Source: Oceanobacter kriegii DSM 6294
GTDB lineage: Bacteria; Pseudomonadota; Gammaproteobacteria; Pseudomonadales; Oceanobacteraceae
Direction: 5' to 3'
NCBI RefSeq assembly: GCF_000422845.1
Contig: NZ_AUGV01000009.1
Coordinates: forward strand, 1-64,000
DNA: 64,000 nt
In this document: positions 11,512-58,467 of the stretch, piece after piece
Position numbering within the stretch: the first letter of the stretch is position 1
Layout of the letters: each line of letters starts with the position of its first letter
Position numbers and translations under genes: made by a program
The notes under the pieces: generated by a model
What the model was told of the DNA's origin: nothing
What the model saw: only the letters and a program-made list of their open reading frames with translations
The model's database searches: none

Positions 11512-11613
11512 TTTCCTGTCGAGGCGGGTGCGAGAACAAGTTGCTTGCTTTTTAGTTAATCAGCTTGTAGTATCTCGCGCCCTTTCATCAAGTAAAGTGT
11601 AACGGAGTTAGAC

Positions 11614-11970
11614 ATGGCCCGTATTGCCGGTGTCAACATTCCTGACAACAAGCATGCAGTAATTTCCCTGACCTACGTTTTTGGCGTTGGTAAGACTACT
11701 GCCAAGCAGATCTGTGCCGCTACTGGCATCGCAGAAGACACCAAGATTGGTACTCTGAGCGAAGATCAGCTTGACCTTATCCGTAATGAAGTTGCCAAGT
11801 TCACGGTTGAAGGTGACCTGCGTCGCGAAGTACAAATGAACATCAAGCGTTTGATGGACATGGGTTGCTTCCGCGGTATCCGTCATCGCCGTAGCCTGCC
11901 ACTTCGCGGTCAGCGTACTAAAACAAATGCTCGTACCCGTAAGGGTCCGCGCAAGCCAATCCGTAAGTAA
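11614..11970 (+). CDS. rpsM: 30S ribosomal protein S13
   Basis: S13 forms inter-subunit bridges and contacts the P-site tRNA. The 118-residue product begins [20 protein letters not shown] and ends in the basic tail [18 protein letters not shown]. It is the first gene of the alpha-operon set (rpsM-rpsK-rpsD-rpoA-rplQ). Length equals E. coli. Confidence 0.98.
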
Positions 11971-42110: not shown

Positions 42111-43841
42111 TCAGTTGAGCATCTGATAGCAGAGCACCAGCAGCAATAGCAGCTCAAGTGCAGCGATGGATTGCCAGAAGGCTACCGGGTTGCGCTGTAC
42201 CAGCGGTGGCCGGGTTTGTTTCAGATACTGTTGATTGGGGTGGCGCAGGTCGTAGACGAATTCGGCCAGATCATCGTAGCGCTTCAGCGGATCGATCTGG
42301 CAGGCCCGTTGAATGGCGCTGTCGACCCAGGCGGGCACTTCGGTGTGTTCGTCGTTCAGAATGCTGCGATATTCCAGTCTGCGTTGCGCCGACTGCGAAC
42401 GGCAGTGAGCCACCCGAGTGCCATACGGATACTGGCCGGTGAGCATGTGATACGTGAGCACCGCCAGCGAAAACTGATCTGACTCGGTCGAGCCGCCCAA
42501 GCCAATAAAATACTCCGGCGCCATATACAACGCAGTACCCGGCAGCGGTTCTTCCGTTTGCATTCCTGCTTCCATCAAACCGCGCACCGCCGTCGAACCA
42601 AAATCGATGATTCGCACGGTGCCTGCGTGGTCGATCAGCACATTGCCGGGCTTGAGATCCTGATGCAGCATTTCCAGCCGATGAAAGGCCCGTAGCCCTC
42701 GGGCAATTTGCTCAATGATTCCTCGAACCACCTCCAGTGACGGCTTGGAGTTGTCTTCCAGCCACTGCGTCAGAGTCTGACCGTCGACGTATTCGGTGGT
42801 GGTGTACAAATAGTTGCGGGGCCGATTGGGCAGCTGGGGTTGCAGCACATGGGGGCTGTTGATGCGACGGCTGATCCATTCTTCCATCAGAAAACGATCC
42901 AGATAGTCAGCGTCTTGTTGTAACTCCCCGGAAGGGACTTTCAACGCTACCTGTTTGCCGCTGTCGATATCTTCTGCCAACCACACGTGACTGCGGCTGG
43001 AGGTGTGCAGATTGCGCAGTACCCGATAACCGTCGAACTCCATGCGGGCATCCAGTGCCGGTGGCAATGGCAGCTGTTGCAGTTCCGCCACCGGGCTATG
43101 ACCGCGAGCAGTCGGCAAGCCCGTTACCTGAATCACCTGCAAGGTGAGGTTGTCGTCACTGCCTCTCTCCAACGCATCTTCGGCAATCTGGCGAGCGGCA
43201 TCGTCAAGGTTATCGCTGTGCAGCTGCAAGGTCTGGTCGATAAATGCCGGGTCGGCAAAGTCATGGATGCCGTCGGTGGTTAATAAAAACACATCGCCGG
43301 ACTCCAGCTCGACACTGTGCTCGTCGATGTCTGCCAGTGGCCGCATGCCCATGGCATTGGCCAGATAGCTTTTGCGGTTGTGCTCCCACACCCGGTGGTC
43401 GCGGGTCAGTTGTTCCATTGATCCATTGCGCAAACGGTAGATACGGCTGTCGCCAAGGTGGAACAGGTGGCCACTGCGCTGGCGCAGAATCAGCACAGCA
43501 AGGGTGCAGACATAACCGCGGTTAAAGTCGTTGCGAAAGGGGCTTTGCAGGGTTTGGGAATGCAGCCAGGCATTGGTGGCGGAGATGACCTTGTTGGCCG
43601 ATTGCTTCACCGACCAGCTTTCCGGGGTGCAGTAGTAGTCGCTTAGAAAGTTACCAACGGCGGTTTCGGCCGCCTGACGGCTGACGTCGCTGCTGCTAAT
43701 GCCATCGGCGATGGCAAACGCAAGACCTTTCAACGCGCCTTCGTTACCTTGCGGCAGCTTGCCGTCGTGGAAGTCCTGATTGTGTGCTTTACGGCCCTTG
43801 TCGGAATAGTGGCCATAGCGAACCTGCAACTGGCTGGTCAT
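42111..43841 (-). CDS. Bifunctional PP2C phosphatase / Ser-Thr protein kinase with C-terminal TM
   Basis: One protein both phosphorylates and dephosphorylates Ser/Thr. In the 576-residue product, residues 1-235 are a PP2C phosphatase (AHNQDFHDG, FAIADGISSSDVSRQAAE, HLGDSRIYRLRNG, LTTDGIHDF, SDDNLTLQVI). Residues 255-530 are a Hanks kinase with ATP lysine in KQVALKVPSGEL, catalytic loop HQDLKPGNVLID, RIIDFGSTAV in place of DFG with an intact aspartate, and PGTALYMAPEYF. One TM helix ends the protein. It lies downstream of the nitrite/formate channel gene on the same strand. A similar fusion lies in the nitrate assimilation operon of Pseudomonas. Confidence 0.9.
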   Translation of the reverse strand: MTSQLQVRYGHYSDKGRKAHNQDFHDGKLPQGNEGALKGLAFAIADGISSSDVSRQAAETAVGNFLSDYYCTPESWSVKQSANKVISATNAWLHSQTLQSPFRNDFNRGYVCTLAVLILRQRSGHLFHLGDSRIYRLRNGSMEQLTRDHRVWEHNRKSYLANAMGMRPLADIDEHSVELESGDVFLLTTDGIHDFADPAFIDQTLQLHSDNLDDAARQIAEDALERGSDDNLTLQVIQVTGLPTARGHSPVAELQQLPLPPALDARMEFDGYRVLRNLHTSSRSHVWLAEDIDSGKQVALKVPSGELQQDADYLDRFLMEEWISRRINSPHVLQPQLPNRPRNYLYTTTEYVDGQTLTQWLEDNSKPSLEVVRGIIEQIARGLRAFHRLEMLHQDLKPGNVLIDHAGTVRIIDFGSTAVRGLMEAGMQTEEPLPGTALYMAPEYFIGLGGSTESDQFSLAVLTYHMLTGQYPYGTRVAHCRSQSAQRRLEYRSILNDEHTEVPAWVDSAIQRACQIDPLKRYDDLAEFVYDLRHPNQQYLKQTRPPLVQRNPVAFWQSIAALELLLLLVLCYQMLN

Positions 43842-43885
43842 CAATGCTCCTGAAGTGAATGGGGCATGGTTGTTCAGGCCAAACA

Positions 43886-43926
43886 CAACACTGGCCCCAA
43901 CGGGGTATCCGCAGGGGCCAGTGTTG
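43886..43926 (-). terminator. Long hairpin between the channel gene and the kinase gene
   Basis: A perfect 13-bp stem CAACACTGGCCCC / GGGGCCAGTGTTG with a 15-nt loop lies in the 202-base spacer. The T-content after it on the minus strand is modest (TGTTTGG), so it may only partly stop transcription or may stabilise the upstream mRNA. Confidence 0.65.
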
Positions 43927-44043: not shown

Positions 44044-44898
44044 TTATTTGGCCTTGTCAGCCGGAGCGGTCATGCTGCCAGCGCCGCCGCCCAGTGTGCG
44101 CTTGGCATCCTGGCGAACATGGGTGTAGTACAGCGGCAAGGCGACAAACAGGAAGCCACCCACCAGGTTACCCAGAGCCGTCGGCAGTTCGTTCCAGATG
44201 ATGTAGTCCATTACTGTGAAGTCACCGCCCATGATCATGGAGAATGGGAACAGGAACATGTTCACAATGGAATGCTCGAAGCCCATGAAGAAGAACAGCA
44301 TGATCGGCATCCACATGGCAGCCATTTTGCCGGTAGCAGAGGTAGAGATCATGGCACCAACCACACCCATGGATACCATCCAGTTGCACAGCATGCCGCG
44401 GATGAAAATGGTCAGCCAGCCGTCGATACCGTGAGCGGCGTAACCAACGGTGCGGGATTCACCAATGGTAGAAACCTTGGCAGCCAGCGCGCCGCCATCG
44501 GTGTTGTAACCGTAGGTCAGAATGAAAGAAATCATCACTGCAACCGTCAGGGCACCGGCCAGGTTCCCGCAGAACACCAGTCCCCAGTTGCGCAGCAATT
44601 GCTGCATGTTGCAGCCCGGACGCTTGTCGATCAGTGCCAGTGGCACCAGTGTGAACACACCGGTCAGCAGGTCGAACTTCATCAGATACAGCATGATGAA
44701 ACCAACCGGGAACAGGCAGGCCCCCAGAATGGGAGAGCCGCTCTTCATGGCAACGGTAATAGCGAATACGGCTGCCAGAGCCAGGATAGCACCGGCCATA
44801 AAGGCTCGGATCAGAGTGTCCTTGGTGGACATGAAGATTTTTTCTTCACCAGCGTCCACCATCTTGGTGGCAAATTCGGAAGGTGCGAGATAGGACAT
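44044..44898 (-). CDS. nirC: Formate/nitrite transporter family channel, likely nitrite
   Basis: FNT proteins are pentameric inner-membrane channels for formate, nitrite or hydrosulfide. The 284-residue product starts MSYLAPSEFATKMVDAGEEK and has six hydrophobic segments. The family sequences include AMKSGSPILGACLFPVGFIM, LLRNWGLVFCGNLAGAL and the central-histidine block MGFEHSIVNMFLFPFSMIMG, with ELPTALGNLVGGFLF near the end. The nitrite assignment rests on its upstream control region (sigma54 and NtrC-like sites, antitermination-type leader) and the downstream kinase, not on residues alone; formate remains possible. Confidence 0.85.
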   Translation of the reverse strand: MSYLAPSEFATKMVDAGEEKIFMSTKDTLIRAFMAGAILALAAVFAITVAMKSGSPILGACLFPVGFIMLYLMKFDLLTGVFTLVPLALIDKRPGCNMQQLLRNWGLVFCGNLAGALTVAVMISFILTYGYNTDGGALAAKVSTIGESRTVGYAAHGIDGWLTIFIRGMLCNWMVSMGVVGAMISTSATGKMAAMWMPIMLFFFMGFEHSIVNMFLFPFSMIMGGDFTVMDYIIWNELPTALGNLVGGFLFVALPLYYTHVRQDAKRTLGGGAGSMTAPADKAK

Positions 44899-45003
44899 TG
44901 TCAGTTCCTCTTGATCATGGTTTGCCCGCAGGCGGTTCTGTTTCTTCTGTGCGACGACCTGGCTGTCGCGCCCTGTTTGCCGGGCCGGCTTTTTCTTCAG
45001 GCA

Positions 45004-45063
45004 TAAAAAACGGCGTCCCGCCGCCGTCAGACACACTGACAGAAGCTGGACACCGTTATCCAG
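45004..45063 (-). promoter_or_regulatory. Candidate ANTAR/NasT-type antitermination leader of nirC
   Basis: Read on the minus strand, a 6-bp hairpin CTGGAT-AACGGT-GTCCAG (45063-45046) has a hexaloop with A at position 1 and G at position 4, the pattern known for targets of ANTAR regulators such as NasT/NasR. A second hairpin GTCAG-TGTGT-CTGAC follows (45040-45026). Its 3' side overlaps an intrinsic terminator ACGGCG-loop-CGCCGT followed by six or more T residues (45027-45004). The terminator lies about 105 bases before the start codon. The second loop has five, not six, bases, so the match is incomplete. Confidence 0.6.
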
Positions 45064-45134
45064 ATACATGCATTAAACGATCTTGAATGCGATCTATGGC
45101 TTGGGCCGCCGTTGGCCCGAACCTGACTGAACAT

Positions 45135-45151
45135 AGCAACAGCGGTGCCAA
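45135..45151 (-). promoter_or_regulatory. Sigma54 promoter upstream of nirC
   Basis: On the minus strand TTGGCACCGCTGTTGCT matches the -24/-12 consensus YTGGCACGRNNNTTGCW at all but one defined position, with correct spacing. Transcription would start near 45124 and give a leader of about 226 bases that includes the whole hairpin array. This indicates control by nitrogen availability or another RpoN activator. Confidence 0.75.
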
Positions 45152-45354
45152 ATATTGGCTGTTGGCTGGCTCCAACTGACCGAACGTCGGCCTGATCACA
45201 CTTTTGGATAGCATTGTCATCTATGCCTTGCGGCGGATGTGGACAATTACTCTTCCGAAGAGGATTCAGCCAGTCAGGTGTCTCGCGGTAGATAGGCAGT
45301 GAAGGGTATTCAGGCGCGTTTAAGGCGCGGTGGCAGGCATATTTGCCTTATAAC

Positions 45355-45371
45355 AGCACCAGCCCGGTGCA
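45355..45371. promoter_or_regulatory. NtrC-like enhancer palindrome
   Basis: AGCACC-AGCCC-GGTGCA differs from the NtrC consensus TGCACC-N5-GGTGCA at one position. It lies about 240 bases upstream of the predicted sigma54 transcription start, within the range for an enhancer. Only one such site was found. Confidence 0.55.
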
Positions 45372-45440: not shown

Positions 45441-46028
45441 TCAGGCGGCGTGCAGTGGCACAACAGTGGCAGTCGTCAGCTTGTTGACCTTCTGCATCAG
45501 GCTAACCCAGCACTTGTCGACACTGCGTTTGGCCAGTGCTGGCAAACGAATCGATAACGGGTTGAGGTTAGGGCGGCTAACGCCATCAATCAGAATGAAA
45601 TCGATCTGTCCGGCGCGACGGCGCACCATAATGTTGTTCGGGCTGACATCCCGGGTACAAATATGGTTGTCGACCAGATACCGATACAACTGATCGAGTT
45701 TGCGGTTGAGGGTACCGCGGTCAATCTGATTGGCCTTGATGGTCTGGGTCAGCGTCAGCGACACCTCGCCATTGTCATCGTGAATCAGCGGAAACAGCGC
45801 ACCCGTGCCATGGGAGGTTTTGATGTCTCCCATATAAGGAGCGATGAAACGCATATCCACGCCTTTGCGTAGCAAATACAGGAAATAGCGCTTTTCGCGG
45901 CGGGTTTGTTTTTCCGGCTTGGTGCCGACCTTGATGCAAAAGTCGGGATCGTCAGGATGGCGGTAGCAGGCTCTGTCCCTGCCACGACCTATCAATAATT
46001 CAGGGTTAATACTAATCGTTTGCGTCAT
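45441..46028 (-). CDS. yrbL: YrbL-family kinase-like protein
   Basis: YrbL is a PhoP-regulated cytoplasmic protein in Enterobacteria with a truncated protein-kinase-like fold; its function is not established. The 195-residue product has LLIGRGRDRACYRHPDDPDF (glycine-rich start), CIKVGTKPEKQTRREKRYF with a candidate ATP lysine, and ICTRDVSPNNIMVRRR followed by FILIDGVSRPN, resembling a catalytic loop and metal-binding Asp. Length is close to the E. coli protein (210). It is upstream of nirC on the same strand but 540 bases away with a separate promoter between, so linkage is doubtful. Confidence 0.87.
   Translation of the reverse strand: MTQTISINPELLIGRGRDRACYRHPDDPDFCIKVGTKPEKQTRREKRYFLYLLRKGVDMRFIAPYMGDIKTSHGTGALFPLIHDDNGEVSLTLTQTIKANQIDRGTLNRKLDQLYRYLVDNHICTRDVSPNNIMVRRRAGQIDFILIDGVSRPNLNPLSIRLPALAKRSVDKCWVSLMQKVNKLTTATVVPLHAA

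Positions 46029-57390: not shown

Positions 57391-58467
<1,077 letters not shown>

Follow-up and report, generated by a model that had tools for sequence, protein, structure and literature searches.

The gene for an FNT-family anion channel in the window (the whole stretch of 64,000 nucleotides of Oceanobacter kriegii DNA that was analysed) lies behind a leader with two ANTAR-type hairpins, the second of which overlaps an intrinsic terminator. Judged from the sequence, NasR-dependent antitermination downstream of an Ntr promoter is likely to control this gene, probably together with the kinase gene that follows it. For nirBD, ANTAR control stacked on a sigma54/NtrC promoter is already described in the available part of PMC12830290, so the regulatory kind itself is not new; what is unusual is the target, an FNT channel, and its kinase partner. 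The arrangement would bring into the NasR regulon of a marine bacterial group an anion channel and probably also a Ser/Thr kinase/phosphatase.

Promoter and leader elements

Between the yrbL-like gene and the FNT gene the minus strand carries, in this order, a palindrome, a sigma54 site, the hairpins P1 and P2 and a terminator:

45441-46028: yrbL-like gene, upstream of the leader
45355-45371, minus strand: NtrC-like palindrome TGCACCGGGCTGGTGCT, TGCACC-N5-GGTGCT, 11/12, centre at about -238 from the predicted start
45135-45151, minus strand: sigma54 promoter TTGGCAC-CGCTG-TTGCT (pattern TGGCACN5TTGCW)
45103-45118, minus strand: ANTAR-type hairpin P1, GGGCC(AACGGC)GGCCC, A1/G4 hexaloop, directly after the predicted start
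45064-45102, minus strand: P1-P2 linker, 39 nt (40 nt if P2 is taken as 5 bp)
45046-45063, minus strand: ANTAR-type hairpin P2, candidate antiterminator, CTGGAT(AACGGT)GTCCAG, A1/G4 hexaloop
45005-45057, minus strand: extended terminator with a T-run at 45010-45005 (six T) and an inner pentaloop hairpin at 45042-45024
44044-44898, minus strand: FNT-family anion channel gene ('nirC'), 284 aa, PF01226 223.1 bits (cut-off 34.6)
42111-43886, minus strand: PP2C phosphatase-Ser/Thr kinase fusion with HQDLKPGN, DFG, GDS and SDDN motifs; optional ATG at 43841

The open reading frame called from 45069 runs through the leader; the start of the channel gene was fixed by the starts of its orthologs at the MSYL/MAYI position, after an SD-like sequence.

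The near-perfect sigma54 promoter of the original prediction (TTGGCAC-N5-TTGCT) is present at 45151-45135. With the usual sigma54 spacing the +1 would fall at about 45124. The palindrome expected about 240 bases further up was also found, at 45371-45355, one mismatch away from TGCACC-N5-GGTGCA, which we took as the NtrC consensus. The window contains one match to TGGCACN5TTGCW (0.20 expected) and one NtrC-like palindrome (0.30 expected). By themselves the two predicted sites are at about chance level for a window of 64 kb, and conservation is their support. In all 17 leaders picked by eye, the window's included, a -24/-12 element lies 11-36 nt ahead of P1, which puts P1 at or near the 5' end of the transcript. 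Eighteen promoters, including that of the window, were scored for NtrC sites (L037, which would have been the 19th, was dropped for want of a sigma54 match), and in 12 of them the best site was matched by at most 5% of 200 base shuffles. Eleven of these 12 have their centre between about -84 and -172; that of the window, at -238, lies farther upstream than those of most relatives. Searches of the genome found rpoN (237.4 bits) and ntrC (761 bits, cut-off 558.6), so that TGGCAC-N5-TTGCW occurs together with both genes. It is somewhat unlikely that the palindrome is instead part of the 3' end of the yrbL-like gene: it does lie about 70 nt past the stop codon of that gene, flanked by ACCAGC/GCTGGT, and at an unusual distance from the promoter, but it agrees with the NtrC consensus at 11/12 positions, no U-tract follows it, and sites of 10-11/12 precede the same promoter in the 11 other leaders where at most 5% of shuffles equal them.

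The hairpin CTGGAT(AACGGT)GTCCAG at 45063-45046, with 6 bp and an A1/G4 hexaloop, had been predicted as the first of the leader. The hairpin is real, but it is P2, because the A1/G4 hexaloop hairpin at 45118-45103, overlooked at that time, precedes it. The hairpin predicted as the second ANTAR target (45040-45026) turned out to lie inside the extended terminator and to form in both computed states, the terminator and the P2-held one, so that a loop of five bases is nothing unusual there. The intrinsic terminator with its T-run at 45010-45005 was confirmed; its overlap, however, is with P2. The 5' arm of the terminator (45057-45048, AACGGTGTCC) consists of the P2 loop and most of the 3' arm of P2, and pairs with the 3' arm at 45018-45009 (GGACGCCGTT). 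P2 therefore overlaps, and excludes, the terminator.

The computed folding energies were -54.8 kcal/mol for the terminator state and -43.2 kcal/mol for the P1+P2 state. In folds of the growing transcript the P2 stem came first, appearing at most steps between 78 and 106 nt, and the terminator prevailed from about 110-114 nt. In the free RNA A1 of the P2 loop may pair with U6 (folds of 82-102 nt transcripts). The pair closing the loop is C-G in P1 and U.G in P2; among the 15 aligned leaders described below the P2 pair is U.G in nine and C-G in six. In SELEX, NasR preferred a C:G pair closing each loop (available part of PMC7496416).

When the intergenic region was shuffled 20,000 times with its dinucleotides kept, two A1/G4 hexaloop hairpins with a terminator overlapping the second never appeared; when the window was scanned in 300-base pieces, they appeared at the leader only. 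The test was devised after the feature had been seen. An ANTAR-loop lookalike at 57852-57863 (GCCAATGGCGGC) lies in an apparent protein-coding frame, which to us looks MreB-like, and was dismissed as a chance match. The window also contains an ordinary ribosomal alpha operon leader (Rfam Alpha_RBS, 11562-11646).

Conservation and spacing of the hairpins

Channel orthologs were searched for in 142 genomes, own genome included, of which 69 gave a match; 30 loci were then read. From these and the named loci 17 leaders were chosen by eye, and 15 were aligned (L095 and L098 were omitted). A1 and G4 are invariant in both loops of all 15 leaders, which were selected for that feature. In the alignment 145 of 150 cells are paired (96.7%). 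The stems covary: 7 of 10 pairs changed on both sides, in 25 cells as compared with 7.1 in shuffles, none of 500 shuffles reached the covariation score, and slid controls collapsed. RNAalifold recovered, unaided, exactly the same 10 pairs. In three loci, L009, L013 and L020 (genomes G006, G002 and G003, of the same genus), the leader has no U-tract terminator. By eye, these leaders carry two A1/G4 loops or remnants of them, and a long stem that would compete with P2. All three have nasR upstream, with cynS between in two.

R1, a covariance model that spans both hairpins and the linker, was built from the aligned channel leaders. Within its own genome the window leader is ranked first by R1. 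Across the 142 genomes, own included, R1 gave 70 matches up to E 0.1, 21 of them at E <= 1e-3. Twenty of these 21 lie directly upstream of the same FNT gene, 14 in training genomes and six outside (G017, G021, G025, G026, G037 and G039); the 21st (G063) adjoins an ANTAR gene. The 49 weaker matches include those before the channel gene (G072), before nrtA (G047) and before a nirB-like gene (G115), and three that adjoin ANTAR genes (G080, G116 and G059); several of the weaker matches whose loci were read precede none of the eight genes queried.

In the 369 genomes of the class, 24 loci besides the window were read at E <= 5e-4, and there was one more row without a locus. Twenty-two of the 24 lie before nas-type genes: 18 nrtA-like, one nasA-like, two nirB-like (34% identity) and one narK-like (29%), the names nrtA, nasA, nirB and narK resting in other genomes on tblastn similarity only. 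The other two precede none of these four. A model trained on channel leaders thus finds nas-type leaders, and we conclude that the motif is the same. Of 73 non-duplicate named channel loci only L077 (Marinomonas, a training row) passes R1, the next being L144 at E 0.13, so the leader is found over only a part of the channel gene's range. It seems to be confined, on the channel gene, to the window's order and near kin. The leaders of L095 and L098 look right by eye but fall below the R1 threshold; they were therefore not counted as R1 leaders, though they remain among the 17 picked by hand.

The linker between P1 and P2 measures 10-41 nt (median 19) in 21 FNT leaders, which as related sequences are not independent, and 40 nt in the window. 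In 26 nas-type leaders it measures 4-49 nt (median 9); a 27th match, L203, is non-canonical and was omitted. According to the available parts of PMC3369931 and PMC8934654, natural linkers of eut leaders are 5-12 nt long, and the effect of EutV is mostly lost at a 14-nt linker and wholly at +20 nt. The window linker lies outside this EutV-type spacing. Folding of the long linker, by which a short spacing would be restored, found no support in the window, as a fraction of 0.335 of shuffles folded as stably. The corresponding fractions were 1.0 for L163, 0.455 for L192 and 0.15 for L209, and better (0.015-0.045) for L184, L214, L182 and L181. Either NasR tolerates longer linkers, or some linkers fold. 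This natural series of ANTAR leaders, with linkers from 4 to 49 nt, allows the spacing rule derived from EutV to be tested directly.

The ANTAR regulator and the proposed mechanism

The genome (a 4.5 Mb assembly, 99.8% complete) has a single ANTAR match, at C1:274266-274421. It lies in a 434-aa NIT-ANTAR protein, encoded at L002:18225-19529, in which both domains score above cut-off (PF08376 170.9 bits, PF03861 63.0 bits). No NCBIfam model matched this protein; its best PDB match is 4akk, a 'nitrate regulatory protein' (E 5.7e-50), which we take to be K. oxytoca NasR. By its domain sequence (NIT plus ANTAR) the ANTAR regulator of this genome is of NasR type and not NasT. A NasT gene had been predicted elsewhere in the genome; this part of the original prediction did not hold, because the sole ANTAR match is NIT-ANTAR. 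The predicted layering of sigma54/NtrC and ANTAR-type control otherwise stood, with rpoN, ntrC, an ANTAR gene, conservation, covariation and the R1 search in its favour.

The NIT-ANTAR gene is clustered on contig C1 with an nrtA-like gene, a NarK-type carrier gene, nirB and a molybdopterin oxidoreductase gene. The carrier and nirB exceed their NCBIfam cut-offs; the oxidoreductase is below cut-off to the Fdh-alpha, NasC and NasA models. The leader of the nrtA-like gene matches R1 with 23.2 bits, and was not returned by the genome-wide R1 scan, whose filters were stricter. At L002:3845-3898 on C1, before this gene, are P1 AGCCC(AATGGC)GGGCT and, by eye, a weak P2, AGC(AAAGGC)GCT; there is a strong terminator and a sigma54-like site with TTGT at -12. 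By eye, the leader of the genome's nirB has A1/G4 loops too, but they are weak, with stems of 2-3 bp, and we do not put it forward as an ANTAR leader.

A nasR gene precedes the channel gene on its strand, ending 320-1139 nt before it, in nine of the 103 non-duplicate loci (L009, L013, L016, L017, L018, L020, L021, L022 and L077; flanks of unnamed loci were 1.5 kb). Five of the nine have an R1-type leader between nasR and the channel gene, and a sixth (L022) has a partial one. L119, additional to the nine, has a 33% partial match to nasR. At L033 (genome G004, contig C52) nasR is downstream of the channel gene; the latter occurs twice here, with the ANTAR (nasR) gene between the copies. Of the 54 genomes that have the channel gene, 19 had both an R1 leader and a long ANTAR gene, eight the ANTAR gene only, one the leader only and 26 neither (p = 4e-7); without the training genomes the numbers were 5/8/1/26 (p = 0.0095), related genomes not being independent. 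'Long' denotes open frames of 400 aa or more, with domains checked in G000 and G002 only. The eight of 27 long-ANTAR genomes without an R1 match (E <= 1e-3) at the channel gene are G002, G003, G006, G036, G090, G103, G115 and G131.

An ordinary attenuator, or a decayed relic, to which no ANTAR protein binds is an improbable reading of the hairpins. The leader as a whole does fold strongly (z -4.0), no Rfam family matches it at gathering thresholds, and its linker is far beyond the EutV range, but stems that covary under fixed loops, the co-occurrence with long ANTAR genes and the return of the motif before nas-type genes argue against this reading. More improbable still is control of a stand-alone nirC by two-component NasS/NasT, the version of the original prediction. 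NasT-controlled leaders do have the same motif, and in some relatives with the channel gene, such as G026, which bears the leader, all ANTAR frames are short. The one ANTAR match found, however, is NIT-ANTAR, and a kinase/phosphatase gene follows the channel gene; for an assembly of this completeness the NasS/NasT version is refuted unless a NasT gene sits in a gap.

NasR-dependent antitermination would then proceed as follows. When nitrogen is short, NtrC-activated sigma54 RNA polymerase would start at about 45124. The transcript would open with P1, and P2 would be next to form. If nitrate and nitrite are missing, the downstream strand would capture the loop and 3' arm of P2 into the extended terminator, as the computed fold suggests, and transcription would stop at the T-run. 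If either ion is present, the NIT-ANTAR protein, whose gene lies apart from the leader in the putative nitrate-assimilation cluster, would bind both A1/G4 hexaloops and hold P2, by analogy with NasR and EutV, and the polymerase would read through. The channel would most likely let in nitrite for assimilation.

Of the known systems that come nearest, K. oxytoca nasF/NasR, in the available parts of PMC7496416 and PMC3369936, shares the NIT-ANTAR regulator, the two A1/G4 hexaloop hairpins and the overlap of P2 with the terminator; by this likeness nitrate or nitrite is the expected signal. Unlike nasF, the target here is an FNT channel gene with a PP2C-kinase gene behind it, on a contig apart from the nas-type cluster and with a 40-nt linker. 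The Pseudomonas nirBD leader (NalA/NasT), as far as PMC12830290 was available, shares the sigma54/NtrC promoter stacked on ANTAR antitermination before a nitrite-assimilation gene, whereas here the sensor is presumably one-component NasR and not NasS-NasT, and the target a channel and not a reductase. E. faecalis eut/EutV (parts of PMC3369931 and PMC8934654) shares the dual hexaloop motif and the exclusive terminator, but its linkers (5-12 nt) differ from the 10-41 nt of FNT leaders. Among the matches listed, literature titles and the starts of abstracts name no NasR- or ANTAR-controlled FNT gene and no pair of FNT and PP2C-kinase genes; the covariance tables of PMC3369931 may list such leaders.

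The channel, its cargo and the kinase neighbour

The channel had been predicted to be of nirC type. It belongs to the FNT family, but it fails the NCBIfam cut-offs of NirC (NF008595, 54.1 of 293 bits), FocA (TIGR04060, 133.3 of 290.1) and fnt (TIGR00790, 148.7 of 232.3), and the nirC label is doubtful by sequence. The best PDB sequence match was LCIA (92.8 bits), as compared with 68.7 for FocA and 46.6 for NirC. The predicted fold (pLDDT 74) matched structures of FocA, LciA, PfFNT, HSC and NirC in Foldseek, a comparison that cannot separate FocA, LciA and NirC. According to the available part of PMC4620153, LCIA is a bicarbonate channel with nitrite activity, and NAR1.1, also of the FNT family, is a nitrite channel that is regulated by nitrate and clusters with genes for nitrate assimilation; unlike our channel these algal NAR1/LCIA proteins are chloroplast proteins. 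The comparisons by PDB sequence search and Foldseek covered LCIA (NAR1.2) alone of these.

Nitrite is the likely cargo, yet cyanate is possible because of the failed NCBIfam cut-offs, the LCIA match and the nearness of cyanase in 27 of 73 loci. The vague label nirC thus gives way to a testable choice, nitrite or cyanate. Under the same leader and NasR control the main cargo might be cyanate, or cyanate and nitrite, or bicarbonate, as part of a broader set that scavenges oxidised nitrogen; we consider this the less probable choice, though one to be taken seriously. In the 73 non-duplicate named FNT loci cynS was within the fetched locus in 27 as against a nas/nir-type gene in 20, with both in six and neither in 32 (flank lengths differ). 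In two genomes of the window's genus nasR, cynS, FNT and kinase genes are consecutive, and on the Psychrobacter plasmid pA17P2 (L215; 17 kb, typed mobilizable) the FNT and PP2C-kinase genes occur together with cynS, which is on the opposite strand. For nitrifiers there is a published hypothesis that an FNT protein encoded next to cynS imports cyanate (parts of PMC10753782 and PMC12342949). Against cyanate, in the 30 relatives cynS was within the 1.5-kb flanks in 0/14 leader-bearing loci and in 8/16 others (p = 0.0027; a cynS beyond the kinase gene would escape these flanks), and in the own genome cynS is on a different contig from the channel gene. Moreover, NasR answers nitrate and nitrite, and cyanate is not among the ions named in the available part of PMC7496416. 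As cynS and the R1 leader exclude each other in the 30 relatives, the channel seems to occur in two settings, nitrate-controlled or cyanase-linked. For the window's channel, entry of nitrite for assimilation is the most likely function.

The FNT gene had been described as stand-alone, but the PP2C-kinase gene is next on the same strand. Of 110 loci, 97 have such a gene on the channel gene's strand with the two starts within 1.5 kb of each other (91 of 103 once known duplicates are removed); in some loci cynS sits between the two, and of the 13 exceptions four lie at contig ends. On the minus strand between the channel and PP2C-kinase genes no terminator-like site was found, and the two are possibly co-transcribed. 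Just past the channel gene (44030-43989, minus strand) a 13-codon Cys-rich frame, MGCSSGYCGSGYC, follows an SD-like sequence. As a micro-ORF it was dropped: no similar frame was seen in the 110 loci scanned, and there was no pattern match in other loci.

A wider reading, which we offer as speculative and rather unlikely, is that FNT and its own PP2C-kinase, often with cyanase, form a widespread module gating nitrite and cyanate, with NasR/NtrC switching its synthesis in response to nitrate through a wide-spaced ANTAR RNA that departs from the EutV spacing rule, and the kinase/phosphatase acting on the channel itself. If so, the kinase of the same type beside NarK in this genome would point to a general post-translational valve on transporters of nitrogen oxyanions.

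At L002:9070-12539, on contig C1, the NarK-type carrier gene is followed by a second PP2C-kinase fusion, a paralog with 38% identity.
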